A stretch of DNA of 15,941 nucleotides from an uncultured Candidatus Saccharibacteria bacterium (lineage in GTDB: Bacteria; Patescibacteriota; Saccharimonadia; Saccharimonadales; Saccharimonadaceae), in NCBI GenBank assembly GCA_937990205.1, contig CALKRO010000002.1, positions 1 to 15,941 of the forward strand. The letters are read 5' to 3'. The first letter of the stretch is position 1. Each line of letters opens with the position of its first letter. Positions 2,894 through 15,455 of this stretch are shown in pieces. The translations under genes were made by a program, and so were the position numbers. The notes beneath the pieces were generated by a model, which worked only from the letters and a program-made list of their open reading frames with translations, ran no database searches and was not told the origin of the DNA.

Positions 2894-3985
2894 ATGAATC
2901 AAAAATTCCAAATTATGTTTCAAATCGCGGAATCTAGTTTCCAGGAACTGCCCAGAGTCTGTCGTACTCCCGCCTATGTCAAGCGCTATCTTGACCTACA
3001 TGATGCGCTTTACACCGCTATGACGCTTGCCCGTACCAAAGCGGAGCGCGGCAGAGTTTATCGCATTTCACAAACCATCTGGTCCGAACTTCTAGCGGCC
3101 GGCGCCAACCCCAGCGAGGTTAGGGAACTACTTAGCCCCAGCTACATCTGGCGTCACTACGACAAAGTCAAAGCCTCTAAAATCAATGTCAATTCTTATG
3201 AATTAATGTACCAACTAATTCAAATCAAAGGCCGTGGATTTGTCCTGAGAAACCTCAAAAAATTTCAGCAACGCGGCATCGATATCGACACTATCGCCAT
3301 GAACTGCTACCGAATAGAAACTAAACATGATCTCGAAGTTCAATGCGCCGAAATGCGCGTCCTCGGCGTCAATCTCACGACGATTTTCGTAATGGCCAAC
3401 CAGCTCCTCACTAAGGAATCTCCAAAACCTGCTAATGTTTACTGCCTACTCTATTTTTTCTATCAGCAGAATCTTTCACTCGGCCTCATTGCTGCCTGGA
3501 TTAAAGATCACCTCACTGAAAAAATCCTCGACAGTATCATAGCCGCTGATCCGCTCGATTGGACCATCTTCGGTATCAATCTCGACGATTATCGACCAAT
3601 TTGGGTTACTGGTAACCATTCACGTTTCTTCGACCCAGAACCCAATTTTAAAAAACTGCCACCCACTATTACCACCACTCAATTTCTCGGTTATCTTAAT
3701 ATTCAGCAAATTTACATCGCCACTAGATATGGTTGCGATTTTGAGAATTTTCTCACCAAGAATTACTTAGTATCTAGTGGTCAGATCGATCTACTGGCTG
3801 AAAAATTTGAACATGATAACCTATTTTGTCCAACAGAGGATAAACTTAAAATTGGCATTGCCTTGCTTAAATATGGTGCCACCAATATTAATCGGGAAAA
3901 ACTTATAGAACTCTTTAATCGATGCGATTTATCGAAAAATAAACGCATCAAATACGGTAAAGTCCTCAATCAGAAAGAAATCTAA
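2894..3985 (+). CDS. Helical-repeat protein of unknown function, paralog 1 of 3
   Basis: 363 residues from the ATG at 2894, chosen because AAAGGGG lies 6-9 bases upstream; an earlier in-frame ATG (2879) precedes that ribosome site and is unlikely. The body is a series of short helical units marked by a G-[AVI]-[ND]-h motif: LLAAGANPSEV (67-77), FQQRGIDIDTI (124-134), MRVLGVNLTTI (154-164). The second half holds the segment shared with the 5554 and 8796 proteins: YFFYQQNLSLGLI, DPLDWTIFGINLDDYRPIWV, then LPPTITTTQFLGYL and a C-terminal LLKYGATNINREKLIELF. No signal peptide, membrane segment or known catalytic motif is visible. The repeats suggest a protein-binding scaffold, which is inference. 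It is the most divergent of the three and is transcribed alone, from its own promoter to its own terminator. Confidence 0.85.
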   Translation: MNQKFQIMFQIAESSFQELPRVCRTPAYVKRYLDLHDALYTAMTLARTKAERGRVYRISQTIWSELLAAGANPSEVRELLSPSYIWRHYDKVKASKINVNSYELMYQLIQIKGRGFVLRNLKKFQQRGIDIDTIAMNCYRIETKHDLEVQCAEMRVLGVNLTTIFVMANQLLTKESPKPANVYCLLYFFYQQNLSLGLIAAWIKDHLTEKILDSIIAADPLDWTIFGINLDDYRPIWVTGNHSRFFDPEPNFKKLPPTITTTQFLGYLNIQQIYIATRYGCDFENFLTKNYLVSSGQIDLLAEKFEHDNLFCPTEDKLKIGIALLKYGATNINREKLIELFNRCDLSKNKRIKYGKVLNQKEI

Positions 3986-5553: not shown

Positions 5554-6657
5554 ATGAATATCATTAACAAATTACACATCTTAAAGGACACTGCATCACT
5601 CACCTATGAAAAATTAAGTCAGAATTTCTGGTGTGGCACTTTCCAAGCTTTACAAAAATGCATTCAGGAATCAGAAGACGAGAAAAAATTAAGTTCAGCC
5701 TACAGTTTTTTGGCCAAGCATTGGCCTAAAATGCATGAAGCTGGCGTCGACCTAGAGGAAATTGTTCAAGTTTTACATCCATTAGATATTATTGAGCAGT
5801 TCGAAGCACTCCAAGATGCCGGCGCACACTTAGATATTGATCAAATTGTCCGCTCTATTCCTGGAGGACACGGTAAGATAGACCTACATCGCCTTCATTC
5901 CTTGGGCGCAGATATGGACTTAATTGCAATTCATGATGATAGTCTCGAGCCCTGTTCGTTCGACGAGATTAACGACCTGATCATTAATGGCGTTTCTGTC
6001 CAAGTCACATTTGACTTATCTGAAAGTCTCATCTTAGGTAGTGCGGAACATCCAGATACCTTATTTAAGATAATCTATTTCTTTTACTCTAATGGTATTG
6101 ATTCATGGAAAATTCGCGAAATGATCAATAAAATCATTCCAGTAAAGTTCATCGATGAGTCAAGTCTGCTATATATTGCTGACCTTATCGACGACATTAT
6201 TGAGGACCCGTCCAATAGGTGGCCTGTTATTGGTATTAAACCTAAAGAATACTCCAAGCCTTGGATTTACCTTCACTGTGACGATTATCTCGGCATAAAG
6301 CCTGAAAAAACTCTAGCAAATCTGCCGAAAGCCATCTCTATACGTGATTTCATTCACTTTACTGGACTTCCGTATATTATAAGCAAAGTTAATTACCATG
6401 GTCTAACCCTCAAAGATTTTATCGATCTCAATTATCTGCCAGCTGGGGGTGACATTGAAGAATTAACCAAAGAAGCCAACTACGCGAGATTGCAGTATGA
6501 AGACCCAATCGATTGGCTTACCCTAGCTTACCTCAGCGACTCGGGTAGTAAATTAGTTAATCGAAAAATGCTACTTGAGTACGGTGACCCATCACGCTAC
6601 AATGCGATAGACTATGATTTTGCCAAAAAATTCATGGAGAATAACTCAGATCACTAG
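5554..6657 (+). CDS. Helical-repeat protein of unknown function, paralog 2 of 3
   Basis: 367 residues; ATG at 5554 preceded by AAGGAGGGG. Residues 55-160 show a repeating unit of about 30-36 residues built on L..aGahld.I: HEAGVDLEEIVQVL, LQDAGAHLDIDQIV, LHSLGADMDLIAI, LIINGVSVQVTF. From about residue 108 onward it aligns over its full length with the 8796 protein: DEIN-LIINGVSVQ, FKI--FFY, IIP--FID, IGI-P-EY-KPWI, LA-LPKA-S--DFIH, LPAGGDIE-L and a C-terminal LVNRKMLLEYGDPS. No signal peptide, membrane segment or catalytic signature is visible. It is co-transcribed with the DUF1653 gene and ends at a shared bidirectional terminator. The solenoid-like repeats suggest binding to a partner, as an inference; no function is recognised. 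Confidence 0.88.
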   Translation: MNIINKLHILKDTASLTYEKLSQNFWCGTFQALQKCIQESEDEKKLSSAYSFLAKHWPKMHEAGVDLEEIVQVLHPLDIIEQFEALQDAGAHLDIDQIVRSIPGGHGKIDLHRLHSLGADMDLIAIHDDSLEPCSFDEINDLIINGVSVQVTFDLSESLILGSAEHPDTLFKIIYFFYSNGIDSWKIREMINKIIPVKFIDESSLLYIADLIDDIIEDPSNRWPVIGIKPKEYSKPWIYLHCDDYLGIKPEKTLANLPKAISIRDFIHFTGLPYIISKVNYHGLTLKDFIDLNYLPAGGDIEELTKEANYARLQYEDPIDWLTLAYLSDSGSKLVNRKMLLEYGDPSRYNAIDYDFAKKFMENNSDH

Positions 6658-6663
6658 TTCCCC

Positions 6664-6698
6664 AAAAAAACAAGCCTCGGACTTAACCGGGGCTTTTT
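6664..6698. terminator. Bidirectional intrinsic terminator between 5554 and the HD hydrolase gene
   Basis: AGCCTCGG / CCGGGGCT stem with a 6-base loop, TTTTT on the plus side and AAAAAAA on the other, so it serves both convergent genes. The stop codon of the minus gene (6697) touches it. Confidence 0.88.
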
Positions 6699-7734
6699 AT
6701 GTTAATCTTACCCCCGGAAGATACAGATATCCCTCCATTTTATAGGCCAAATTTTTTTCAATATAGCCCTTTGCAATTTTACAAGCTTTCGACATCCGTT
6801 CATCTTGCCATAACGGATCAATATAGCGCACTTTCGCCTGGCAGTTCACTACGTACACTCCGTCCGGGCATTGCTCAAAACTTTTCGCCTTCTTTATTTT
6901 CTTCGCCTTCTGCCAAGCTAAAAAAGCATCACAGTAATCTGAAGCTAAAATCATTTCAATCACTTCCGATTCTTTCCTTTGATATAAATCTGCCACCGAA
7001 ATCCTTCCAGATTCACTCATTTTCTTCAAAATATCGGCAAGAAACTGCATTGAGTAGCGTGTTCGATCTTCACGATAAAATAAAGACAATTGCGAAGTTA
7101 GTTTAACAAATTTTCGTGCGATTTTTTTCGTTTGAAATCCCAATTCTTTCACTCCATTTTCGTCTGATTGCACCACAATATCCGCATACATTTCACGGAT
7201 TTCTGTCAAATCTGCCACTCCATACGCGAACAGCATATTCACCAGTGAATATTCCAAACGATCTGCTGATAACTTCGGCGTGTTATTATCCGCAATTGGA
7301 TATAAGTGGTAATCGTCCACCTCTGAGATTAGAATACCGTCCCGCTTAAGCAAACAACTGATTTCCGGCGACCCTACAATCACCTCTGTCGTCAAATCTT
7401 CTGTCGACTCCTGCATCAAATGGTCACCATTCATAAAATCCACACAATGTTTAAAAACTGGGGTCGCAATATCATGAAAAAGCCCCGCCAAAGTCTGCTT
7501 TTTGTCGTGAGTAAAATGCCAAACTATCAACGCCACCCCTATTGCATGATCTAAACTTGAATAAAATCTCTGACTCTCAAATAAATCCGAATAAATCGTT
7601 CCGCAAGTGATGCTGATGTGCTTCTGCCTCTGTAAGACTGGTGTTTCAATATATTCCTGCAGCCACTCCGGAAAATCTGACTCCAAAATGGCATGGAATT
7701 TTCGAATCAATTCTTCTACCTCACACTCTGTCAT
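6697..7734 (-). CDS. HD-domain phosphohydrolase
   Basis: 345 residues. The HD metal-site motifs are in order: H63 in SSLDHAIGVALI, H87-D88 in LAGLFHDIATPVFKH, and D158 in SADRLEYSLV; H96 and H105 (NGDHLMQE) may add ligands. The run RFYSSLDHAIGVA...FHDIATPVFKH resembles the dNTPase-like/COG1078 branch, where the text is RF.HSLGVA...LLHDIGH.PFSH. Such enzymes hydrolyse phosphate esters of nucleotides or signalling nucleotides; the substrate cannot be read here. Residues about 215-345 form an unrecognised C-terminal region. The start ATG lies inside the end of the upstream DHH gene (14-base overlap) and has no good ribosome site, so translation is probably coupled. The pairing suggests joint processing of a phosphorylated nucleotide or pyrophosphate-type compound. 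Confidence 0.88.
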   Translation of the reverse strand: MTECEVEELIRKFHAILESDFPEWLQEYIETPVLQRQKHISITCGTIYSDLFESQRFYSSLDHAIGVALIVWHFTHDKKQTLAGLFHDIATPVFKHCVDFMNGDHLMQESTEDLTTEVIVGSPEISCLLKRDGILISEVDDYHLYPIADNNTPKLSADRLEYSLVNMLFAYGVADLTEIREMYADIVVQSDENGVKELGFQTKKIARKFVKLTSQLSLFYREDRTRYSMQFLADILKKMSESGRISVADLYQRKESEVIEMILASDYCDAFLAWQKAKKIKKAKSFEQCPDGVYVVNCQAKVRYIDPLWQDERMSKACKIAKGYIEKNLAYKMEGYLYLPGVRLT

Positions 7735-8647
7735 ATTCTATATTATTAAACTCAATTGCGCGCTTTAGGATTTCTTTTCTCAATATAAAATCGTTAAGCA
7801 CCACAAGATTTTCGTGATTGCTTTTTGTGTCAAACAGTTTTTCTAGTCCAGATTGCGTTTCTTTGCTGTCACAGTAAAGATAGCTACGCCCATCCTCAAG
7901 GGAGATGATATTTATCATCCACTTATCGAAGTTGGCAAAAACTTCATTTAATAATTCTTCTGTAATTCTATCTCGATTAAATAAAATTATTTGGCCAATT
8001 ACCTCGGGAAGTAATGGACTAACCCATTCCGTTTTCATGTCGTCTATGATTGCAGTTTTTGGGTCTTGCATCTGTTCGCTTTCGCAGGCCCTGAAATATT
8101 CTCGACCAAAATCATCTGTTAGTCCACCGAGTTTCTTTAGCTCCGTGTAAGCTTTTTTATCGCGTTCTGTAGTAATTTTGGATCTCAAATTGATGGTATT
8201 ATCTAAAATTCCAGCTATGAGTAATTTACATAAATCTTGATCTAGTAAATCCGCTTTGTCGGCTTTGATAAAACGTTCGTAGATCTGCGTGCAAACTGCG
8301 CCAATTACTTCTATTTGGCTCTTTACGGCTTTATTCTGGCGCCAATATTCTTCATAGCCTGGATGATGGTCGATAACTTCAACGATGCACTCCGGATCAA
8401 CGAAGGTATCAAAGAAATCTGGATTTGAGACATCCAGTAGCACAAATTTTGTTTTTTCTATGTCTACTGGTTTATCTAGCGTATATTTCAAGCTACGCAA
8501 CATCGGCGGTACAGTTTTATTCATTTTTGAAGTAGAGATTGCCAATGTTTCCTCATCAGTCGTCACCCTAAGCAATTCTCTATAAGCAATCATGCTCGCA
8601 TAAGCGTCGGTATCGATATATTTTCGTCCAGCGGCAACAACTATCAT
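7721..8647 (-). CDS. DHH-family phosphoesterase, resembling family II inorganic pyrophosphatase / PPX1
   Basis: 308 residues, the usual length of manganese-dependent family II pyrophosphatases (about 310). Motifs: D12-T-D14 near the N-terminus, D72 in FVLLDVSN, the signature D93-H94-H95 in VIDHHPGYEEYW, GAVCTQIYE (116-124) and D149 in AGILDNTINLRS. These are the expected metal ligands except that the N-terminal GHxxPDxD motif reads GRKYIDTD: the His ligand is replaced by R8. The C-terminal part ends with DFILRKEILKRAI, in the place where pyrophosphatases carry the substrate-binding SRKKQ; only part is kept. It may therefore act on a substrate other than pyrophosphate, such as a polyphosphate or a nucleotide. 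It is the first gene of an operon with the HD hydrolase and ends with TGA. The -10 box directly before the ATG implies a leaderless message. Confidence 0.86.
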   Translation of the reverse strand: MIVVAAGRKYIDTDAYASMIAYRELLRVTTDEETLAISTSKMNKTVPPMLRSLKYTLDKPVDIEKTKFVLLDVSNPDFFDTFVDPECIVEVIDHHPGYEEYWRQNKAVKSQIEVIGAVCTQIYERFIKADKADLLDQDLCKLLIAGILDNTINLRSKITTERDKKAYTELKKLGGLTDDFGREYFRACESEQMQDPKTAIIDDMKTEWVSPLLPEVIGQIILFNRDRITEELLNEVFANFDKWMINIISLEDGRSYLYCDSKETQSGLEKLFDTKSNHENLVVLNDFILRKEILKRAIEFNNIEYDRV

Positions 8648-8795: not shown

Positions 8796-9629
8796 ATGAA
8801 TATTTTTAGAAAAGAAAAGATCGAATCAGACAAGGTAGATTTACATTACCTGCATTCACAAGGTGCCGATATGGACCAAATTGCTCGTCATTATAATCTC
8901 GAGACTTGTTCACTCGACGAGATTAACAACCTGATTATTAATGGCGTTTCTGTACAGACCGCCTTTGAATTATCTGAAGATTATATCTTGAGTAATGCAG
9001 AGTATCCAGATAACCTATTTAAGATACTCAGCTTCTTTTATACTCTTGGTATTACCTCAGAACAAATTCGCAGTATAATCAGTAGGATTATTCCCACCAT
9101 GTTTATCGATAAAATAAAACTTTTTTCGATTAAAAGCACTGTCGACGATATCGTCAGTTCTTCGCCTGACAAATGGTCAAGTATTGGTATCGAGCCTAGT
9201 GAGTACGTTAAACCCTGGATACGTCTTAACTACTGTCGTTACCTTAGTCTAGATTCTGGCAGAACTCTAGCTGATCTACCAAAAGCTGTATCGCTACACG
9301 ATTTCATCCATAACGTCAAACTCAGTGAAATTGAACGTGAATTCCATTATCAAGACTACACCTTCGATCAGTTTATTCGAAGAAGCTTTTTACCAGCTGG
9401 CGGTGACATTGAGCAATTAGTTCAGAAATCTTTTTGCGAGAACATAGAATACGAAAACCCAGTAGGATGGCTAATTCTTGCTGCTATCTATGTTAATGGC
9501 GGCAAATTAATCAACAGGTATAAGTTATCTAAATATGCCAATCCAACCAATTACTTCATCGTTGATCTAAAGTTTGTCACAGAGTATTTCCCCAACATTT
9601 TCACGAATAGAGAAAAAGATTTCACTTAA
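8796..9629 (+). CDS. Helical-repeat protein of unknown function, paralog 3 of 3, N-terminally shortened
   Basis: 277 residues; ATG at 8796 after AAAAAGGGGG. Apart from about 13 N-terminal residues the whole protein aligns with residues about 108-367 of the 5554 protein: KVDLHYLHSQGADMDQIA, DEINNLIINGVSVQ, FKILSFFY, IIPTMFID, IGIEPSEYVKPWI, TLADLPKAVSLHDFIH, FLPAGGDIEQL, and a C-terminal GGKLINRYKLSKYANPTN. The N-terminal repeats of that paralog and the DUF1653 gene in front of it are missing, while the promoter and leader are kept, pointing to duplication followed by deletion. It keeps an intact reading frame, ribosome site and terminator, so it is not an obvious pseudogene. Function unknown. 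Confidence 0.87.
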   Translation: MNIFRKEKIESDKVDLHYLHSQGADMDQIARHYNLETCSLDEINNLIINGVSVQTAFELSEDYILSNAEYPDNLFKILSFFYTLGITSEQIRSIISRIIPTMFIDKIKLFSIKSTVDDIVSSSPDKWSSIGIEPSEYVKPWIRLNYCRYLSLDSGRTLADLPKAVSLHDFIHNVKLSEIEREFHYQDYTFDQFIRRSFLPAGGDIEQLVQKSFCENIEYENPVGWLILAAIYVNGGKLINRYKLSKYANPTNYFIVDLKFVTEYFPNIFTNREKDFT

Positions 9630-9688: not shown

Positions 9689-9717
9689 TTGACATAAATT
9701 ATAAAATATATTATAAT
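9689..9717 (+). promoter_or_regulatory. Consensus sigma70-type promoter of the alphaCTD-like gene
   Basis: TTGACA (9689-9694), a 17-bp spacer of only A and T, and TATAAT (9712-9717). It matches the consensus at every position, so this gene should be highly transcribed. The leader contains two TTTCATACA repeats (from about 9734 and 9753) before AGGAGGGG. Confidence 0.88.
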
Positions 9718-9772: not shown

Positions 9773-10252
9773 ATGACCGAACACATTACTAACCGTGGTA
9801 ACAGACGATCTATTTATCAGGATAAGGACGATTTTCAGAAATTTCGTGACCTCGTCGAAGCGCATCAAGCAATTTCCGCTTCCGCCGCCTGTCGTCAAGA
9901 AGCTGCGCTTAAACTAGCCCTGAAAAAGCTTCAGCAGACAGAGGAAATTAAGACTCGTGACCGTATCTTAATCGAACTTCGAAAACTTAGTCAAGGTATC
10001 AGCGAACCAGCCGTTATGGCTTCTAAGTACCTGATTAAGAACGATCCCGGCCACGCCAGTATCGATATCTTGAATCTCAAGCCTAGACCTTATCACTGCC
10101 TAAGAAATCGTAATATCAATACTATTCAAGATGTTTTAGCGCTTGACTCACTCGATTGGGGTAGGATTCGTAATCTCGGCAAAGTTTCCATTCAGGAAAT
10201 CATCCAGGCCATGCATGACCTCGGTTATGCCGATTTCTACATTCCACATTAA
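9773..10252 (+). CDS. Stand-alone RNA polymerase alpha C-terminal-domain-like protein
   Basis: 159 residues from the ATG at 9773, chosen because AGGAGGGG lies 6 bases upstream. Residues about 96-152 match the alphaCTD: SIDILNLKPRPYHCLRNR, NINTIQDVLAL, then WGRIRNLGKVSIQEIIQAM and LGY. In E. coli alpha the DNA-contacting Arg265 lies in VRSANCL and corresponds to R105 in PRPYHCL; the NLGKKS turn corresponds to N134-LGKVS. N268 is replaced by His and K298 by Val. Residues 1-90 are a charged, mostly helical region (QEAALKLALKKLQQ) without an alpha N-terminal domain, so it cannot assemble polymerase. It likely binds UP-element DNA or the transcription complex in place of, or together with, the normal alphaCTD. 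It is monocistronic, with a perfect-consensus promoter. The domain call is firm; the regulatory role is inferred. Confidence 0.88.
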   Translation: MTEHITNRGNRRSIYQDKDDFQKFRDLVEAHQAISASAACRQEAALKLALKKLQQTEEIKTRDRILIELRKLSQGISEPAVMASKYLIKNDPGHASIDILNLKPRPYHCLRNRNINTIQDVLALDSLDWGRIRNLGKVSIQEIIQAMHDLGYADFYIPH

Positions 10253-10258
10253 TTCAAA

Positions 10259-10289
10259 AAGCTCCCAAAGTCGGGGGCTTTTCTTTTTT
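10259..10289 (+). terminator. Intrinsic terminator after the alphaCTD-like gene
   Basis: AAGCTCCC / GGGGGCTT stem with a 6-base loop and a run TTTTCTTTTTTT, starting 6 bases after the stop codon. Confidence 0.88.
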
Positions 10290-10355
10290 TAAAAAACACT
10301 TAAAAGCCCAACTATTCTTCTCTTGGCATAACCATTTTACATCATGTTCTCTACA

Positions 10356-10384
10356 TTGACTTTTCAAACTTTTTATGTTAAAAT
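10356..10384 (+). promoter_or_regulatory. Sigma70-type promoter of the 10521 gene
   Basis: TTGACT (10356-10361), 17-bp spacer, TAAAAT (10379-10384) preceded by an extended TGT. Transcription should begin near 10391, leaving a leader of about 130 bases, the longest in the window. Confidence 0.8.
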
Positions 10385-10390
10385 ACATAG

Positions 10391-10487
10391 ATTAAGTCAT
10401 CCCGACTTAATTGGCGATTCTTCGTATGAAGAACGTTTCATCACACTGAAAAGTGAGTACCTTAAAAGAAGATTTAAAGTTTAAGGT
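10391..10487 (+). promoter_or_regulatory. Structured leader with four successive hairpins upstream of 10521
   Basis: In order: ATTAAGTC / GACTTAAT (8 bp, loop ATCCC, 10391-10411); TTCTTC / GAAGAA (loop GTAT, 10418-10433); CACT / AGTG closed by a GAAA tetraloop (10444-10455); ACCTTAAA / TTTAAGGT (8 bp, 13-base loop, 10459-10487). The last stem is followed by the pyrimidine-rich CTTTCATTTTTCTATTTTT and then AGGAGGG, so it could act as a terminator or as a switch. I do not recognise a known riboswitch class. Confidence 0.6.
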
Positions 10488-10520
10488 CTTTCATTTTTCT
10501 ATTTTTAGGAGGGTAAAGAT

Positions 10521-11180
10521 ATGAAACATGAAACTAACATCGTAGAGAAGACAAAAGTTAAATCCGCCAGCCTGCTTGACCACATTTGTCATTTAGGCCT
10601 CAGTAAGCACACTGAGAGCTACCTCAGCAACAAATTCGGCACCACGAGTGAACTGCTCTGGAAGGTTCGCCACGAAGCATACCTTAGAGAGCATCATCCA
10701 GAAAACAGCAGTTATCTCGAGAAGCCACTTTGGGATGCCTTGGTCGCTTTTGATCGTGCCGGCTACATTCGACACGACATTAAGCCCGAGGATTTTATTC
10801 TCAATCGACTTCGTAGACTGGCCAAATCCGAGCAATATCAAGCCTGGAATTGCGCTGCTGATCTCGAAGATTTTTGCGAAGTTCGTCCAGAACAGGGAAG
10901 TTCCGATCAATCTGACTTCGCTTATGGTAACCAAAGGTATGAAAATTTCACACCACTCACCGAAAAACAGCGTGAGGAAATTCGGCAGATTCTAAAAGAT
11001 GTTATTCCTGACGAGTTGACTTACCGGATTATTTGTTTTCGGTATTCGCTCGGAGATGGTAAATGTCATACTACCGCCGAGGCCGCGTCGATACTTAATC
11101 GTAAGATTAGCAAAATCCGTGGTCTGATGAAGAAAGCCTATTTCTATATTAATGGCTGCGATCTTTTCGACATTATTTAA
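10521..11180 (+). CDS. Predicted alphaCTD-like / sigma region 4-like hybrid protein, paralog 1
   Basis: 219 residues, ATG at 10521 after AGGAGGG. Residues 18-83 (HLGLSKHTESYLSNKFGTTSELL...WDALVAFDRAGYI) follow the alphaCTD/helix-hairpin-helix plan 'LGLS.R..N.L...gi.Ti.dLl' ending in 'aL...GyI', with an insert in the middle. Residues about 148-212 resemble sigma70 region 4: LTEKQREEIRQILKDVIP, ELTYRIICFRYSLGDG, then HTTAEAASIL and ISKIRGLMKKAYFYI, the last two matching the turn and recognition helix of the 'R.GL.....TLEE.a..l.vsrervRqie..al' pattern. Sigma regions 1-3 are absent, so it cannot be a normal sigma factor. It is likely to bind promoter DNA or RNA polymerase as a regulator. The sigma4-like half is fairly clear; the alphaCTD-like half is a weaker resemblance. 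Confidence 0.82.
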   Translation: MKHETNIVEKTKVKSASLLDHICHLGLSKHTESYLSNKFGTTSELLWKVRHEAYLREHHPENSSYLEKPLWDALVAFDRAGYIRHDIKPEDFILNRLRRLAKSEQYQAWNCAADLEDFCEVRPEQGSSDQSDFAYGNQRYENFTPLTEKQREEIRQILKDVIPDELTYRIICFRYSLGDGKCHTTAEAASILNRKISKIRGLMKKAYFYINGCDLFDII

Positions 11181-11187
11181 ATCTTCG

Positions 11188-11213
11188 AAACCCCGCCTCA
11201 TCGCGGGGTTTTC
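11188..11213 (+). terminator. Intrinsic terminator after the 10521 gene
   Basis: AAACCCCGC / GCGGGGTTT stem, 6-base loop, then T-rich TTCTCTTGTTT, 8 bases after the stop codon. The right arm plus the tail is repeated 35 bases further (11240-11252). Confidence 0.88.
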
Positions 11214-11223
11214 TCTTGTTTAA

Positions 11224-11249
11224 AAAACCTACTTTCGTTGCGGGGTTTT
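11224..11249 (+). terminator. Possible second, weaker terminator
   Basis: AAAACCT pairs with GGGTTTT across a 12-base loop. The right side GCGGGGTTTTCT repeats the right arm of the terminator just upstream, so this looks like a partial copy acting as a back-up. The rest of the gap up to 11331 is AT-rich and holds nothing I can identify. Confidence 0.4.
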
Positions 11250-11331
11250 CTGTTATTAAAATTTCCCACCATAGAGCATATTACTTATTTTTATAAAAAC
11301 CATCCATGTAAGAAATCTTTATTTTTCACAT

Positions 11332-11360
11332 AAAAAAGACTGCTTAATCTCTAAGCAGTC
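11332..11360 (-). terminator. Intrinsic terminator after the 11389 gene (minus strand)
   Basis: On the minus strand GACTGCTT / AAGCAGTC (8 bp, 7-base loop) followed by six T. It starts 28 bases after the stop codon. Confidence 0.87.
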
Positions 11361-11388
11361 AAAAGATTGAAAAGGTAATAAAACAAAG

Positions 11389-11841
11389 TTATTCATTTCC
11401 AGCATTACTAATTAAATTACGGTTTCGTATTAAGCCATATTTCGTAAAGCTAATACTACCCGTGCGTCTTTTGACATCATAGTTCGCATCGAATTTATAC
11501 TTAGTATAAACCGCTTTTTCCTCGCAAGCACTAGATAAGTCAGCCAAACATCTTCCAATTACTTTTACGTAATCATAAGAAAGGCCAGAATATTTCAGTT
11601 CTAGGATTTGAAAATCCTTCACCAGAAGAAGCTCTTCTCCCTGCGCATAACATTTATTCGCCTGGAATTTTCCGGTCTCCACCTGGAATTCGATGCGCAT
11701 TAGCTCATTATCACGAGCTAACTTAAACCCCTCTAAAAGCTCCGACAGATATGGTCCATCTTTAATCCGATAGACCCTCGCGTCGCAATTTTCGTCGATC
11801 GACAAACTTTTGTGTTCATTGCCATTTTCGTTGATATCCAT
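11389..11841 (-). CDS. Small protein of unknown function, paralog of the 4544 product
   Basis: 150 residues from the ATG at 11841, chosen because AAAGGAG lies 8 bases upstream; an in-frame TTG at 11859 has no such site. Residues 1-35 are polar and not shared with the paralog. From residue 48 it aligns with the 4544 protein: RIEFQVETGK, KDFQILELKY, then YTKYKFDANYDVKRRTGSISF (112-132), with the RTGS turn conserved. Cys residues at 64, 98 and 106 are not consistently shared, so a metal site is not supported. No signal peptide or membrane segment. It is transcribed alone from its own promoter between two hybrid alphaCTD/sigma4 genes on the other strand. Function unknown. Confidence 0.82.
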   Translation of the reverse strand: MDINENGNEHKSLSIDENCDARVYRIKDGPYLSELLEGFKLARDNELMRIEFQVETGKFQANKCYAQGEELLLVKDFQILELKYSGLSYDYVKVIGRCLADLSSACEEKAVYTKYKFDANYDVKRRTGSISFTKYGLIRNRNLISNAGNE

Positions 11842-11913
11842 ACCGATATCTCCTTTCAAAGAACTATCCCATTAGGGACAACCAACATGATTCGCTATTG
11901 AATCAATATTTAT

Positions 11914-11942
11914 ATTTTGACATAAGAATAAAAGAAAGTCAA
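11914..11942 (-). promoter_or_regulatory. Promoter of the 11841 gene (minus strand)
   Basis: On the minus strand TTGACT (11942-11937), 17-bp spacer, CAAAAT (11919-11914) preceded by an extended TGT. The leader includes a small hairpin TCCC-TAAT-GGGA (about 11867-11878), then AGTTCTTTGA directly before AAAGGAG. Confidence 0.65.
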
Positions 11943-12010
11943 GGGACGAAAACCGAACAGTAAATCTAATTAGTTCCACCCGATTTCAACACTTCCACCC
12001 CTGTTATTCA

Positions 12011-12039
12011 TTGACAGAAAATGTATCACATTGTATAAT
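12011..12039 (+). promoter_or_regulatory. Consensus sigma70-type promoter of the 12124-12634 operon
   Basis: TTGACA (12011-12016), 17-bp spacer, TATAAT (12034-12039), a full consensus match. Transcription should begin near 12046. Confidence 0.87.
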
Positions 12040-12044
12040 ATAAA

Positions 12045-12102
12045 GGTAGTTTTTACTCGCACCTTAAAATTTTGGAACCCTGCCTACCATGTTTTAAGGT
12101 GC
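12045..12102 (+). promoter_or_regulatory. Leader stem-loop with possible pseudoknot upstream of 12124
   Basis: GCACCTTAAAA (12059-12069) and TTTTAAGGTGC (12092-12102) form a perfect 11-bp stem with a 22-base loop. GGTAG at the very 5' end of the transcript (12045-12049) is complementary to CTACC inside that loop (12084-12088), which would make an H-type pseudoknot. The stem ends 10 bases before GAGGAGGA. The arms share ACCTTAAA / TTTAAGGT with the last hairpin in the 10521 leader. Confidence 0.6.
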
Positions 12103-12123
12103 ATTTCTTATGAGGAGGATATT

Positions 12124-12597
12124 ATGAAACTACCCCAGATTCATCACGATACGCATGCCAAAAATATCGCCATTTTGAAAAAATGGCAACTCTTTTTCGA
12201 AGAAAAAGACGGTTATACCAATCGCCAAGAAGTCATGCTGGATTTTAGTCGATTCTGCCACCATCTGAAGAATCATGAAGTAACTATTTCCGGCAAGTGT
12301 CTCCTGGGTGGTCTGATTTATGGCGACCCTAGGTTTAAGGATGGCGAAGAAATTTTCACCAGCCACATTACGCATTTTGAGCGCGTAGCCAAAGAGTATT
12401 GTCGTGGCGTCGAGCATGAATTAATCTGTGCCACCACTAAAACTCAGCATAAATATTATTTTTATGCCGATCACTACAGTGATGATATGTCCAATATGTT
12501 ACTGGATATGGCTAAATTTAATAAACTCAGTCTCATCCGAGGTTATTATTTACCCACTAGACTTCAGTATCCGAACATCGATCGTCACTTCATCTAA
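12124..12597 (+). CDS. Small protein of unknown function with a YGDPRFxDG motif
   Basis: 157 residues from the ATG at 12124, set by GAGGAGGA 5 bases upstream; the frame is open further but that part lies in the structured leader. Residues 1-50 are helical and charged. Residues 56-115 read SGKCLLGGLIYGDPRFKDG-EEIFTSHI, then ICATTKTQHKYYF, which resembles a small beta-barrel-like domain found in phage and bacterial hypothetical proteins with the pattern 'G.vYg.pRF.DG..I.TS.i' followed by 'v.T.sG..Y.L'. I know no function for that domain. The C-terminal 40 residues (MSNMLLDMAKFNKL) are predicted helical. It is the first gene of an operon with the hybrid alphaCTD/sigma4 protein 36 bases downstream. 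Confidence 0.82.
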   Translation: MKLPQIHHDTHAKNIAILKKWQLFFEEKDGYTNRQEVMLDFSRFCHHLKNHEVTISGKCLLGGLIYGDPRFKDGEEIFTSHITHFERVAKEYCRGVEHELICATTKTQHKYYFYADHYSDDMSNMLLDMAKFNKLSLIRGYYLPTRLQYPNIDRHFI

Positions 12598-12633
12598 TCT
12601 CATCTGAGATTCACTTCTATGGAGGCAATGCCT

Positions 12634-13281
12634 ATGAAAAAATTAAAATGTAAACCTGCATCTACACTGAAATCCGTTTCCGGACTCGGGCTTAGCAAGC
12701 GCGCCGAACGTTACGTGGAGAAAAATTACTATTCCATGGATCAATTAGTTTGGCACGTACGTTTTCTGCACTATATGATGCAGTATCACCCAGAAACTTT
12801 AAAAGCCTATCGCCCAAAAGTTTTCAAGGAAATCATCAGCGCTTTGAACACTGCCGGTTATATTCGTACAGATTTTGTCGCCGATTCTTTCGGTCTTAAA
12901 TATCTTAAACGTGTGTTACTCGGCAATAAGTGCGAACCGGTCATTCTGGAATGTTTTTTACCGGAATTTTGTAAGAAATCCAATCGTTTTCGTTTAACGA
13001 ACCGGCCAGACGATCAAAGTTGTTTGGAATGGAATAAAATTTACGAAAATGACAAGCTTCTTTATAAAAAAACTCTCAAAACTTTCCGTTCCAATCTTCG
13101 CACCTATCTGTCCGCGGCTGAAATGAAGTATTTTGATTACCGTTTCGGCTTCAATAAACACCGGACTCACACTTTATCCCAGACTGCTGCAGAATTTAAG
13201 CTCACCATTCCAGAGGCTAAAAAACAGGAGAAGGAAATCCTGAAGAAAATTGAACTTAGTAAAATTATTTACATGATTTAA
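12634..13281 (+). CDS. Predicted alphaCTD-like / sigma region 4-like hybrid protein, paralog 2
   Basis: 215 residues. The ATG at 12634 is preferred over those at 12619 and 12628 because GGAGG (12621-12625) lies 8 bases upstream of it. Residues 14-77 (SVSGLGLSKRAERYVEKNYYSMDQLVWHVR...IISALNTAGYI) carry the same N-terminal unit as the 10521 protein. Residues about 82-148 form a middle part (LKYLKRVL-GNKCEPVILE, then LEWNKIYENDKLL) shared mainly with the 14065 protein. Residues 150-207 match sigma70 region 4: YLSAAEMKYFDYRFGFNKH, HTLSQTAAEFKLTIPEAKKQEKEILKKI. This is the copy in which the 'YRFGf......TL...A..f.l' pattern is easiest to see. It lacks other sigma regions. It ends at a bidirectional terminator and is co-transcribed with the 12124 gene. 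Confidence 0.83.
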   Translation: MKKLKCKPASTLKSVSGLGLSKRAERYVEKNYYSMDQLVWHVRFLHYMMQYHPETLKAYRPKVFKEIISALNTAGYIRTDFVADSFGLKYLKRVLLGNKCEPVILECFLPEFCKKSNRFRLTNRPDDQSCLEWNKIYENDKLLYKKTLKTFRSNLRTYLSAAEMKYFDYRFGFNKHRTHTLSQTAAEFKLTIPEAKKQEKEILKKIELSKIIYMI

Positions 13282-13298
13282 TTTGAAAACTTGGTTCC

Positions 13299-13336
13299 AA
13301 AAAATAAACCCCTCATTACGAGGGGTTTTATTTTTT
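13299..13336. terminator. Bidirectional intrinsic terminator between 12634 and 13346 genes
   Basis: AACCCCTC / GAGGGGTT perfect stem, loop ATTAC, TTTTATTTTTT on one side and an A-run (AAAAAAT) on the other. It serves both convergent genes. Confidence 0.9.
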
Positions 13337-13345
13337 CCATTTGCG

Positions 13346-13855
13346 TTACTTCAATTCTTCCCAGTCGATATCAACCGTATCATCTACAGCCTCCGCGAAT
13401 TCAGGATGCATCATTCCGTCAAACAACAGAATCATTCTGCTCTCCTTCGTGAATCCCAGATAAACATTGTCTTGCATATGTTGATCTCGTGTCTCCCTAA
13501 AGAAGAAACGATTCAAAATATACTTCTTAGCATTTTCTGAAACCACAATCCGCATCAAGAGATCTAGTCCTAGCATGATACAGGGCTTATCCAAGATTTT
13601 ATCTTTGCTATCCTCTAGATTCTTTAGAGGATATCCCTGCAACATTACTCCAGGCTGGAAATTTACTATTTCCGACTTGTGAAATTTTAAGTCCCCCATA
13701 GTATTGACGGCTTTCTCTAGCTGTTCATCTCTGTCTTCACCAACTGGCACTGTCAAGCGCCAAACATCATAGACAATCGCCTCATCGCGAATCACCTTGT
13801 CCACTAGTCCCCGATTTGTAAACGGCATTACACTACTTAACCCCTCATTTCGCAT
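13346..13855 (-). CDS. Protein of unknown function
   Basis: 169 residues from the ATG at 13855, with GGAGG 8 bases upstream. I recognise no family. Alternating hydrophobic and polar segments (IVYDVWRLTVPV 27-38, CIMLGLDLLMRIVV 92-105, SRMILLFDGMM 139-149) suggest a beta-rich globular domain, followed by an acidic C-terminus (AEAVDDTVDIDWEEL). There is no signal peptide, and the hydrophobic stretch 92-105 is too short for a membrane helix. It is transcribed divergently from the 14065 hybrid gene, with the two -35 boxes only 9 bases apart, so both may answer to one regulator bound there. The leader carries distant GTAAC / GTTAC arms and the GGTTCTTT box. Confidence 0.8.
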   Translation of the reverse strand: MRNEGLSSVMPFTNRGLVDKVIRDEAIVYDVWRLTVPVGEDRDEQLEKAVNTMGDLKFHKSEIVNFQPGVMLQGYPLKNLEDSKDKILDKPCIMLGLDLLMRIVVSENAKKYILNRFFFRETRDQHMQDNVYLGFTKESRMILLFDGMMHPEFAEAVDDTVDIDWEELK

Positions 13856-13936
13856 CTTTCCACCTCCATAAAACAGAAAAATCGTAACGTCTTAGAAAAT
13901 TAAAGAACCTATTCAGTTACGACTGACTACTCTGTT

Positions 13937-13965
13937 ATTCTATAATATTTAACCTATTTTGTCAA
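13937..13965 (-). promoter_or_regulatory. Sigma70-type promoter of the 13855 gene (minus strand)
   Basis: On the minus strand TTGACA (13965-13960), 17-bp spacer, TAGAAT (13942-13937). It lies back to back with the plus-strand promoter at 13975. The leader arms TCGTAAC / GTTACGA (about 13880-13890 and 13915-13922 on the plus strand) could pair over a long loop. Confidence 0.75.
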
Positions 13966-13974
13966 TCTAAAACA

Positions 13975-14002
13975 TTGACAAACTCATTATTTAGTTTATA
14001 AT
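13975..14002 (+). promoter_or_regulatory. Sigma70-type promoter of the 14065 gene
   Basis: TTGACA (13975-13980), 16-bp spacer, TATAAT (13997-14002). A short hairpin CGGT-TTT-ACCG (14011-14021) marks the start of the leader, and AGGAGGGG precedes the start codon. Confidence 0.84.
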
Positions 14003-14064
14003 TATGCTATCGGTTTTACCGTATCGTACCTTTAGTTCAAATCACATTTTTTTAGGAGGGGACA

Positions 14065-14733
14065 ATGAAAAATGAAGTTAGTAAAGCTTGGAAAGTCGAC
14101 AGTTTAAGTCAGCTCGGCTACAACCATCTCATCGATGGCAATGTCAAAAATTATGTCGAACGTAATTATGAAACCGTAGAGCATTTGATCTGGGATTGCC
14201 GCTACCTCTATTATATGGAGCAGTATCATCCAGGAGTTATTCGAAGAATTCCACATTCGCTCAAGATTTGTATGGAAATTTTTGAATACAATCACTTAAT
14301 TTGCCGAAACATCGATTCCAGAATCATCGGCATGTATTATCTCTATCGTACGGTTTACGGCGACGATTATGAACCTTTGATTTTGGAATATCGTGACCCC
14401 AGAATCACCAAAAAGGCTCATAATTATCAGCTCACTGATCGCGCCAAAATTCTCACCGTCCACGACTGGAATCAGCTCTACGAGGAAGATATTTGTATCG
14501 ATCTCGAGAGAAGCCAGAAAGAACTCAAGCATCTCGAAAACATTCAGCGGGTTTTACAGCGTGAGTTAACCAAGCGAGAATATCGCATCGTTAATTTCAG
14601 CTTCGGTTTACAAGGTGATAACATTCACAATCTACGTGAAACTGCAGTCCATGAAGGTTTGCTTCTCACCCAGACCGATCGTCATCTGAAGTCCGCGCTC
14701 AAAAAAATCCAGCCGTATCTAACTAAAATCTAG
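14065..14733 (+). CDS. Predicted alphaCTD-like / sigma region 4-like hybrid protein, paralog 3
   Basis: 222 residues, ATG at 14065 after AGGAGGGG. Residues 13-80 (SLSQLGYNHLIDGNVKNYVERNYETVEHLIWDCRYLYYMEQYHP...) correspond to the N-terminal unit of the 12634 protein, with NYVERNYETVEHLIW aligned to RYVEKNYYSMDQLVW. The middle part shares YLYRTVYGDDYEPLILEY and HDWNQLYEEDI with it. Residues about 160-216 are the sigma70 region 4-like part: LQRELTKREYRIVNFSFGLQGD, HNLRETAVHEGLLLTQTDRHLKSALKKI, i.e. the 'lt.rE..i..f.fGL......l.e.a...gl...q....l..al.kl' pattern. It lacks the other sigma regions. The gene has its own promoter and terminator and is divergent from the 13346 gene. DNA binding is expected from the helix-turn-helix; polymerase contact is inferred. 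Confidence 0.83.
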   Translation: MKNEVSKAWKVDSLSQLGYNHLIDGNVKNYVERNYETVEHLIWDCRYLYYMEQYHPGVIRRIPHSLKICMEIFEYNHLICRNIDSRIIGMYYLYRTVYGDDYEPLILEYRDPRITKKAHNYQLTDRAKILTVHDWNQLYEEDICIDLERSQKELKHLENIQRVLQRELTKREYRIVNFSFGLQGDNIHNLRETAVHEGLLLTQTDRHLKSALKKIQPYLTKI

Positions 14734-14754
14734 CCCCTATCTAGGGGCTTTTTA
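14732..14754 (+). terminator. Intrinsic terminator after the 14065 gene
   Basis: AGCCCCT / AGGGGCT perfect stem, loop ATCT, then TTTTT. The left arm begins within the TAG stop codon. Confidence 0.88.
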
Positions 14755-14769
14755 GTGCCAAATTGAAAA

Positions 14770-14800
14770 TAAAAAAGAGCCCCTCATCCTTTAGGAACTC
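14770..14800 (-). terminator. Intrinsic terminator of the 14928 transcript / candidate RNA (minus strand)
   Basis: On the minus strand GAGTTCCT (14800-14793) pairs with AGGGGCTC (14784-14777), 8 bp with two U-G pairs and an 8-base loop, followed by six T. Confidence 0.82.
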
Positions 14801-14891
14801 TTGGTAGAAAAACTTAGACGATGACTCACTGGCACTAGATACGGGTCACCCCGGTCGCTCTATCTAGCGCCAGACAGGTCACCTACCCAAG
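14770..14891 (-). ncRNA. Candidate structured RNA or structured 3' UTR with its own terminator
   Basis: Read on the minus strand: CTTGG(G)TAG (14891-14883) can pair with CTACCAAG (14807-14800), enclosing GTGAC/GTCAT (5 bp), then a 12-bp stem TGGCGCTAGATA (14872-14861) / TATCTAGTGCCA (14841-14830) with one G-U pair. Above it lie a 7-base bulge GAGCGAC and a 4-bp stem CGGG/CCCG capped by GUGA, a GNRA tetraloop. GNRA exists only on this strand. An intrinsic terminator follows at once. It begins about 37 bases after the stop codon of the 14928 gene, so it could be that gene's 3' UTR or a processed small RNA. I see no separate promoter. It matches no RNA class I know. Confidence 0.6.
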
Positions 14892-14927
14892 CTGCTCTAC
14901 ACCCACAACGTTTACGCCAATATATAT

Positions 14928-15455
14928 TTACTCGTCCAATGTGGCGAGTGTGGCGCCCTGATGAATTTGCTCCAAGCGATCTTTAAAAATCGGCTTGGCG
15001 TCCGTCGAAATCAGATAATACTTATCCATTTTCGAGGTTACCAAGTAAATCTCGCTATCACCGATAGTTTTCTGCATCTCCTTCCAGTTTTCTGGTCGGA
15101 AAATATTAAGCAGCTCCTCTTTGCTCATTAGCGGCAAATCGAGCTTCTCAATCGACTGAATATTCAGAATCTCACTCGGCCTCCTTGCATCATCGGAATC
15201 TATTCCACGCAAGCGAATTCTTACATCATCGGATTTTATTCCGCGCAAGCGAATTTCTTCCTCAAAATCGAATTTCGGCAGATGTCCGTAGTAAAATGCA
15301 TTGAACATCTTAAGCAAAGCAAACTGATCTATCGCCGTATGAGGTTCCATAAATTCGAAACTCCATCGACTCACCAGGGAATAATCCCGGCGAATTCGCA
15401 AATTTGCTGCAGCACGAAGTTCTTGAGCCTTCTCACGTTCGCGTCTTTTCGACAT
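14928..15455 (-). CDS. Protein of unknown function with an internal 12-residue duplication
   Basis: 175 residues, ATG at 15455 with AAAGGTGGGG upstream, the same ribosome-site form as in the 4122 gene. The N-terminus is strongly basic (SKRREREKAQELRAAANLRIRRD), possibly for nucleic-acid binding. Residues 68-91 contain a tandem repeat, IRLRGIKSDDVR then IRLRGIDSDDAR. The C-terminal part (EIYLVTSKMDKYYLISTDAKPIFKDRL 135-161) looks like a small beta-sheet module. I recognise no family, signal peptide or membrane segment. It is transcribed alone from an extended -10 promoter lying directly behind the terminator of the preceding gene, and its message probably runs on through the structured RNA at 14770-14891. 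Confidence 0.8.
   Translation of the reverse strand: MSKRREREKAQELRAAANLRIRRDYSLVSRWSFEFMEPHTAIDQFALLKMFNAFYYGHLPKFDFEEEIRLRGIKSDDVRIRLRGIDSDDARRPSEILNIQSIEKLDLPLMSKEELLNIFRPENWKEMQKTIGDSEIYLVTSKMDKYYLISTDAKPIFKDRLEQIHQGATLATLDE
15188..15259 (-). repeat. Two 36-bp tandem repeats inside the 14928 gene
   Basis: Units 15188-15223 and 15224-15259 both begin CATCATCGGA and contain ATTCC-CGCAAGCGAATT, differing at a handful of positions. The 36-base period keeps the frame and adds 12 residues. The differences indicate an older duplication rather than a fresh slippage. Confidence 0.8.

Follow-up and report, generated by a model that had tools for sequence, protein, structure and literature searches.

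The window analyzed here, a 15,941-nucleotide stretch of contig CALKRO010000002.1, comes from a Saccharibacteria (TM7) bacterium related to the tiny, mouth-dwelling Saccharibacteria. It carries a cluster of small genes whose products resemble the promoter-reading parts of RNA polymerase. Three of these, 10521, 12634, and 14065, encode hybrids in which an N-terminal unit like the C-terminal domain of the polymerase alpha subunit (alphaCTD) precedes a sigma region 4; the fourth, 9773, encodes a stand-alone alphaCTD protein. The cluster, along with its promoters and leaders, lies on the plus strand. An earlier note on this DNA had observed such a grouping; that observation is confirmed, and its interpretation finds partial support. 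On balance we favor the view that the genes belong to a family of small regulators of transcription in Saccharibacteria, put together from those modules of polymerase that read promoters and acting at promoters as proposed below. New here are a three-part form found among relatives, the reading of 9773 as its probable detached end, a single-sigma setting, and rewritten recognition helixes. Such hybrids were not named in literature searches covering titles and abstract openings.

The three hybrids are members of one family: hybrid 1 (10521..11180, 219 residues), hybrid 2 (12634..13281, 215 residues), and hybrid 3 (14065..14733, 222 residues). Sigma region 4 occupies residues 146–206 of hybrid 1 (10956..11138), residues 143–215 of hybrid 2 (13060..13278), and approximately 14521..14730 of hybrid 3. 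Both fold and profile comparisons identify it in the window hybrids, and the family profile of this half picks up region 4 of RpoD (16 RpoD seeds passing a length and motif filter were used, and 27 RpoA seeds). The earlier description of the C-terminal helix-turn-helix as like sigma70 region 4 is thus borne out; checked for nearness to another family, the motif proved to be that of sigma region 4. Profile scans of the window proteins found no sigma region 2 in any hybrid, as the earlier note had also stated. The hybrids are like region 4 of RpoD in fold and in part of its RFG-type motif, and differ in lacking regions 1–3 and in having the recognition helix replaced.

The N-terminal units (N-units) span approximately 10566..10775 in hybrid 1 and residues 8–78 in hybrid 2 (12655..12867), and are far more divergent from the alphaCTD of polymerase than is 9773. 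None of the three hybrids matches PF03118, the Pfam alphaCTD family, at its gathering score. The helix-hairpin-helix loop (NLGKKS type) is lost, and window-type N-units alone reach alphaCTD at a profile probability (Prob) of only 42 and 3.8, where a LigA control gives 3.1. Fold scores of window units alone are likewise low. These points speak for the N-unit being an unrelated helical domain that resembles alphaCTD by chance, leaving the sigma region 4 half as the only polymerase-derived part. We judge this very unlikely in view of the wider family. A profile of 29 N-units matches 95 database alphaCTD segments at Prob 95.4 (E 1.8e-8, 58 columns), column shuffles reached the real score in 0 of 200 trials in each of six comparisons, and alphaCTD chains rank first in the N-unit fold list. 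In addition, relatives L069, L116, and L125 form a bridge, having kept GIG or GVG in the hairpin loop. A generic helix-hairpin-helix in place of alphaCTD was rejected on RuvA, LigA, and sigma region 4 control profiles, which score 0.1–2% with the N-units. The N-unit profiles excluded L008 and L075 in one build and L008, L075, L119, and L124 in another. The control profiles retained 4/6 RuvA segments and 4/7 and 4/7 LigA segments, the others having been dropped for stop codons, which arose because some loci were not in match orientation. The claim that the N-unit follows the alphaCTD plan is therefore favored by profile evidence, without a significant fold match.

The 9773 protein (9773..10252, 159 residues) is a plainer case. 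Its residues 94–148 (10052..10216) match PF03118 at E 5e-13, with 49 bits against a gathering score of 23.8, and the protein matches alpha chains of solved structures with a best E of 2e-8. As read from the sequence, the DNA-contact residues of the alphaCTD family are present as R105, G136, S139, and E142, the equivalents of R265, G296, S299, and E302 in E. coli numbering; the K298 equivalent is V138. It differs from the alpha subunit in lacking the N-terminal domain and in this valine. That 9773 is a clear alphaCTD without the alpha N-terminal domain had been said in the earlier note, and the scores agree.

Recombination of polymerase parts is also supported by relatives elsewhere. Ten selected relatives were scanned with Pfam, and in eight of them (L011, L015, L069, L073, L009, L068, L070, and L125) the chain finishes with a PF03118 alphaCTD. 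The sigma region 4 cut-off is passed as well by six of the eight; L068 falls below it (20.0 versus 24.1 bits), and for L125 Pfam gives no sigma region 4 match. L070 lacks the N-unit, and L123 has sigma region 4 alone. Both Pfam domains exceed their cut-offs in one chain in 7/10 relatives, L078 included. The L078 type (genome G048, 1572–2984) has the same two modules but differs in its length of 470 residues, in having alphaCTD first, and in an extended C-terminal portion whose matches, all weak, are winged-helix-like. The earlier proposal that parts of polymerase have been recombined into small regulators is backed more strongly by these chains, in which sigma region 4 stands with a bona fide alphaCTD. 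In another relative (L012/L090, genome G071), the hybrid gene lies immediately upstream of a frame that, by eye, resembles the start of rpoB.

Public databases hold many proteins of related design. Among the best 120 listed database matches of L011, which itself has both domains, 113 carry PF04545 (sigma region 4) plus PF03118, and 100 cover 80% or less of L011; twenty database proteins (P0063–P0082) cover 98–100% of it. In all 15 database sigma4–alphaCTD proteins read, sigma region 4 precedes alphaCTD, and the N-unit of L011 is absent from the chains read except P0063, P0067, and P0081. These public proteins resemble the three-part relatives in uniting both modules in one small chain; the window hybrids differ from them by the N-unit and by a sigma region 4 without a C-terminal alphaCTD. 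Chains without the N-unit are thus common in databases, and the searches made found no description of their function.

The 9773 protein aligns with the second part of this design. Compared with three-part proteins, it matches the linker plus alphaCTD (P0063, residues 45–158, with E 4e-20 against a small database). In a set made up of 182 database proteins plus the hybrids, its matches two to six are three-part chains whose alignments start at residue 44–50 and extend beyond the alphaCTD. Its residues 35–74 are similar to the linker of the three-part relatives. The first 94 residues alone gave no significant match by BLAST or phmmer, and the N-terminal part alone scores 12.7 bits with a linker profile, above all 500 shuffles (best 9.0). 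The best match of 9773 is P0060, a fusion of the first part of 10521 with the alphaCTD of 9773. It is a single database sequence, possibly an assembly artefact, and was not used.

In line with this collinearity, we propose a split. In its basic form the chain would run from an alphaCTD-like unit through sigma region 4 and a helical linker to a terminal alphaCTD. In the present lineage the first two modules would have become the three diverged paralogues 10521, 12634, and 14065, and linker plus alphaCTD the separate gene 9773. Profiles show the module composition, joined by fold for sigma region 4; the split is deduced from collinearity, and the three-part form is probably the older, which this lineage would have split and duplicated. 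In a tree of 59 rows (P0002–P0006, P0009–P0054, P0057–P0062, and rows with poor model coverage were left out), the 11 rows that comprise the window proteins and orthologues of these fall into a single clade with support 96/91 and two duplications. Three-part rows sit on several branches around it, in a tree that is unrooted and has many long branches. A C-terminal alphaCTD is not detected in 29 tree rows; 11 of these are window-type, and four others (L111, L112, L118, and L122) apparently have, by eye, a degenerate alphaCTD.

The only contig locus found for the 10521 family in a search of genome contigs is SDRH01000023.1, from TM7 oral taxon 351. The gene order 10521, 11389, 12124, 12634, 13346, 14065, 14928, 15586 is retained there as homologues. 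Protein identities are 91% for 10521, 83% for 11389, 89% for 12124, 92% for 13346, and 99% for 14928; 15586 has 76% over 83 residues. The ratios of nonsynonymous to synonymous divergence (dN/dS) are 0.077, 0.067, and 0.048 for 10521, 12634, and 14065, at dS of 0.59, 0.36, and 0.31, indicating that all three are constrained genes under purifying selection. Oral taxon 351 has a fourth hybrid (L003, 6940–7827), which is diverged and extended at its C-terminus, at a place that by synteny lies past the end of the window.

Sigma70 residues R584 and E585 contact −35 bases, according to PMC2613000, and both are missing from all three window hybrids, where TRERIRQIEAKAL of RpoD region 4 has become KISKIRGLMKKAY, TIPEAKKQEKEIL, and LLTQTDRHLKSAL. 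The RFG-type motif is in part kept (YRFGF, FSFGL, FRYSL). The TRERxRQ recognition helix is intact in 19/30 three-part rows, in 1/29 other rows (11 of the 29 being window-type), and in 0/3 window proteins. The changed helixes suggest that the paralogues probably read sites other than TTGACA. Either retargeting or loss of DNA reading could account for the change; the strong constraint on the proteins favors retargeting.

Loss of DNA reading would suit polymerase-binding decoys of the anti-sigma or appropriator type, a kind of role raised in the earlier note. Either sigma region 4 would sit on the beta flap or region 4 of RpoD would be bound by the alphaCTD-like unit, and RpoD would be displaced or redirected without the decoy itself reading DNA. 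The missing −35-reading residues and the partly retained RFG-type motif would fit such a role, as would the high expression suggested by perfect consensus promoters (see below). However, a decoy has no need of the intact −35-reading helix seen in 19 of the 30 three-part relatives, and AsiA and Gp67-type factors have folds other than those of the hybrids. We therefore consider decoys unlikely.

A further question is whether the hybrids serve as half of a two-subunit sigma factor like SigO-RsoA, in which a partner protein would contribute region 2. In common with one half of such a pair, the hybrids have region 4 and lack region 2. PMC8103513 and PMC10141391 disagree on which of SigO and RsoA carries region 4. 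The hybrids differ by the extra alphaCTD-like unit, and no second region 2 protein was seen in the 23 hybrid-bearing genomes scanned (of 28). In 21 of the 23, there is exactly one region 2, whole, in an open frame of 257–360 residues; in G173 the two matches are partial and lie at the ends of contigs, and G222 gives no match. A split sigma factor is thus highly improbable, and we give it scarcely any credence.

The preferred reading remains that of regulators working with a single-sigma polymerase. We infer that the hybrids are a real and unusual regulator family, with a presumed function as follows. The proteins would bind promoter DNA in trans, sigma region 4 reading a −35-like site in the major groove and the alphaCTD-type units gripping the adjacent minor groove, the polymerase, or both. 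Each protein would thereby have promoters of its own at which it recruits the single-sigma polymerase or blocks it. A bolder version, which we regard as unlikely, holds that in these one-sigma bacteria the proteins are promoter-recognition arms working in trans. They would provide a second alphaCTD–sigma4 clamp that guides housekeeping polymerase toward other upstream elements. The job of alternative sigma factors would thus be done by proteins that have no region 2; here the arm would have been split and duplicated, with parts that can be combined.

As far as seen in two scans, the N-unit family is sparse and, at the thresholds used and among the matches listed, confined to Saccharibacteria relatives. 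A match spanning N-unit and sigma region 4 occurs in at least 28 of 393 relative genomes, plus a partial one in G047 (among matches listed, near E 6e-16 or better). When 379 genomes drawn from across the phylum were scanned at E 1e-15, only G001 and, partially, G047 had such a match among those listed. The earlier suggestion of phage-type factors found no backing in the searches made. The 12634 protein found nothing by tblastn in 50,697 phage records, two viral-contig scans gave no relative, and the window had no megablast match in 72,556 plasmid records; a phage or plasmid origin was accordingly dropped. A viral-contig scan with an unrelated 624-residue protein gave two loci, with 49 residues matched. 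P0098, a database sigma4–alphaCTD protein, is at least 80% covered in 1/48 matching phage records and 0/193 plasmid records.

The surroundings bear on one more alternative, that the proteins bind DNA outside transcription initiation (in the nucleoid, replication, or defence) with borrowed helix-hairpin-helix and helix-turn-helix modules. PglW of BREX also has an alphaCTD-like domain, as reported in PMC12839542, and the window neighbours are mostly of unknown function. Set against this, both modules are specifically of promoter-recognition origin. Moreover, scans of window proteins revealed none that could be recognised as acting in defence or replication, and nine window proteins gave no PADLOC match better than E 0.027. 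We rate the alternative as quite improbable. Conserved partner genes, looked for in 37 genomes, were also considered and rejected. The gene upstream of hybrid 2 (12124..12597, 157 residues, of unknown family) has matches in 6/37 genomes. In G001, G043, G174, and G062 (the last match weak, E 4e-4), its relative is no more than about 2 kb away from a hybrid, N-unit-only, or alphaCTD gene, but it is not near such a gene in G004, in G038, or at a second place in G001. The 11389/4544 family has matches in 16/37 genomes. Its match shares a contig with a hybrid in G001 and in G058, without being close to it in the latter, and in G005 it neighbours an alphaCTD gene.

A strong promoter had been claimed for each gene, and the sigma70-type promoters are consistent with this in sequence. 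That of 9773 (9689..9717) is a perfect TTGACA-17-TATAAT; those of the 12124–12634 unit (12011..12039) and hybrid 3 (13975..14002) also have 12/12 consensus bases, and that of hybrid 1 (10356..10384; TTGACT-17-TAAAAT) has 10/12 with a TG before the −10. Terminator-like hairpins lie downstream of 9773, 10521, 12634, and 14065. Mostly structured leaders had been claimed as well. Two of the leaders, with inferred starts, are those of 10521 (10391..10520, structured, z −3.4, 127/130 bases identical to oral taxon 351) and of 12124–12634 (12046..12123, z −2.6, 74/75 compared bases identical). Both are conserved beyond synonymous sites (dS 0.31–0.59). The 14065 leader folds no better than shuffles and is less conserved, identical at 48/56 bases; it contains a small hairpin with a single compensatory change, from CGGU/ACCG to CGGC/GCCG. 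The stem ACCTTAAA/TTTAAGGT, at 10459–10487 and 12061–12100, is common to the two conserved leaders beyond chance expectation, and this palindrome is a candidate autoregulatory site. The leader elements may work at the RNA level or serve as operators in the DNA.

On the minus strand, a rod-like long RNA hairpin (14768–14930, z −5.6) fills the space from where the 14928 gene ends to the terminator of that gene and is possibly a small RNA; over about 14741–14929, 173/189 alignment columns are identical in oral taxon 351. An Rfam scan of the window gave nothing at gathering score. At a lax E-value, the leader of 10521 and the hairpin at 14.8 kb gave weak matches only, below cut-off, and the minus-strand hairpin had no match even at E 5. 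Elsewhere in the window, three paralogous proteins (2894–3985, 5554–6657, and 8796–9629) have no Pfam match above cut-off; 5554 and 8796 are 49% identical, and either is 21–25% identical to 2894. Of an overlapping minus-strand pair (6697–8647), one member is a weak HD-domain protein and the other resembles Mn-dependent pyrophosphatases (NF003877, E 2e-17, under its cut-off).

Saccharibacteria have very small genomes, and to our knowledge the switching of gene programmes in such cells is little understood. Because they carry sigma region 4 and alphaCTD in cis, the three-part relatives are a natural counterpart to the alphaCTD–sigma4–DNA complex of PDB 3n97. If the proposed reading is correct, regulators made from the polymerase's own DNA-reading domains, with helixes diversified between paralogues, would offer these bacteria a simple route to promoter specificity.

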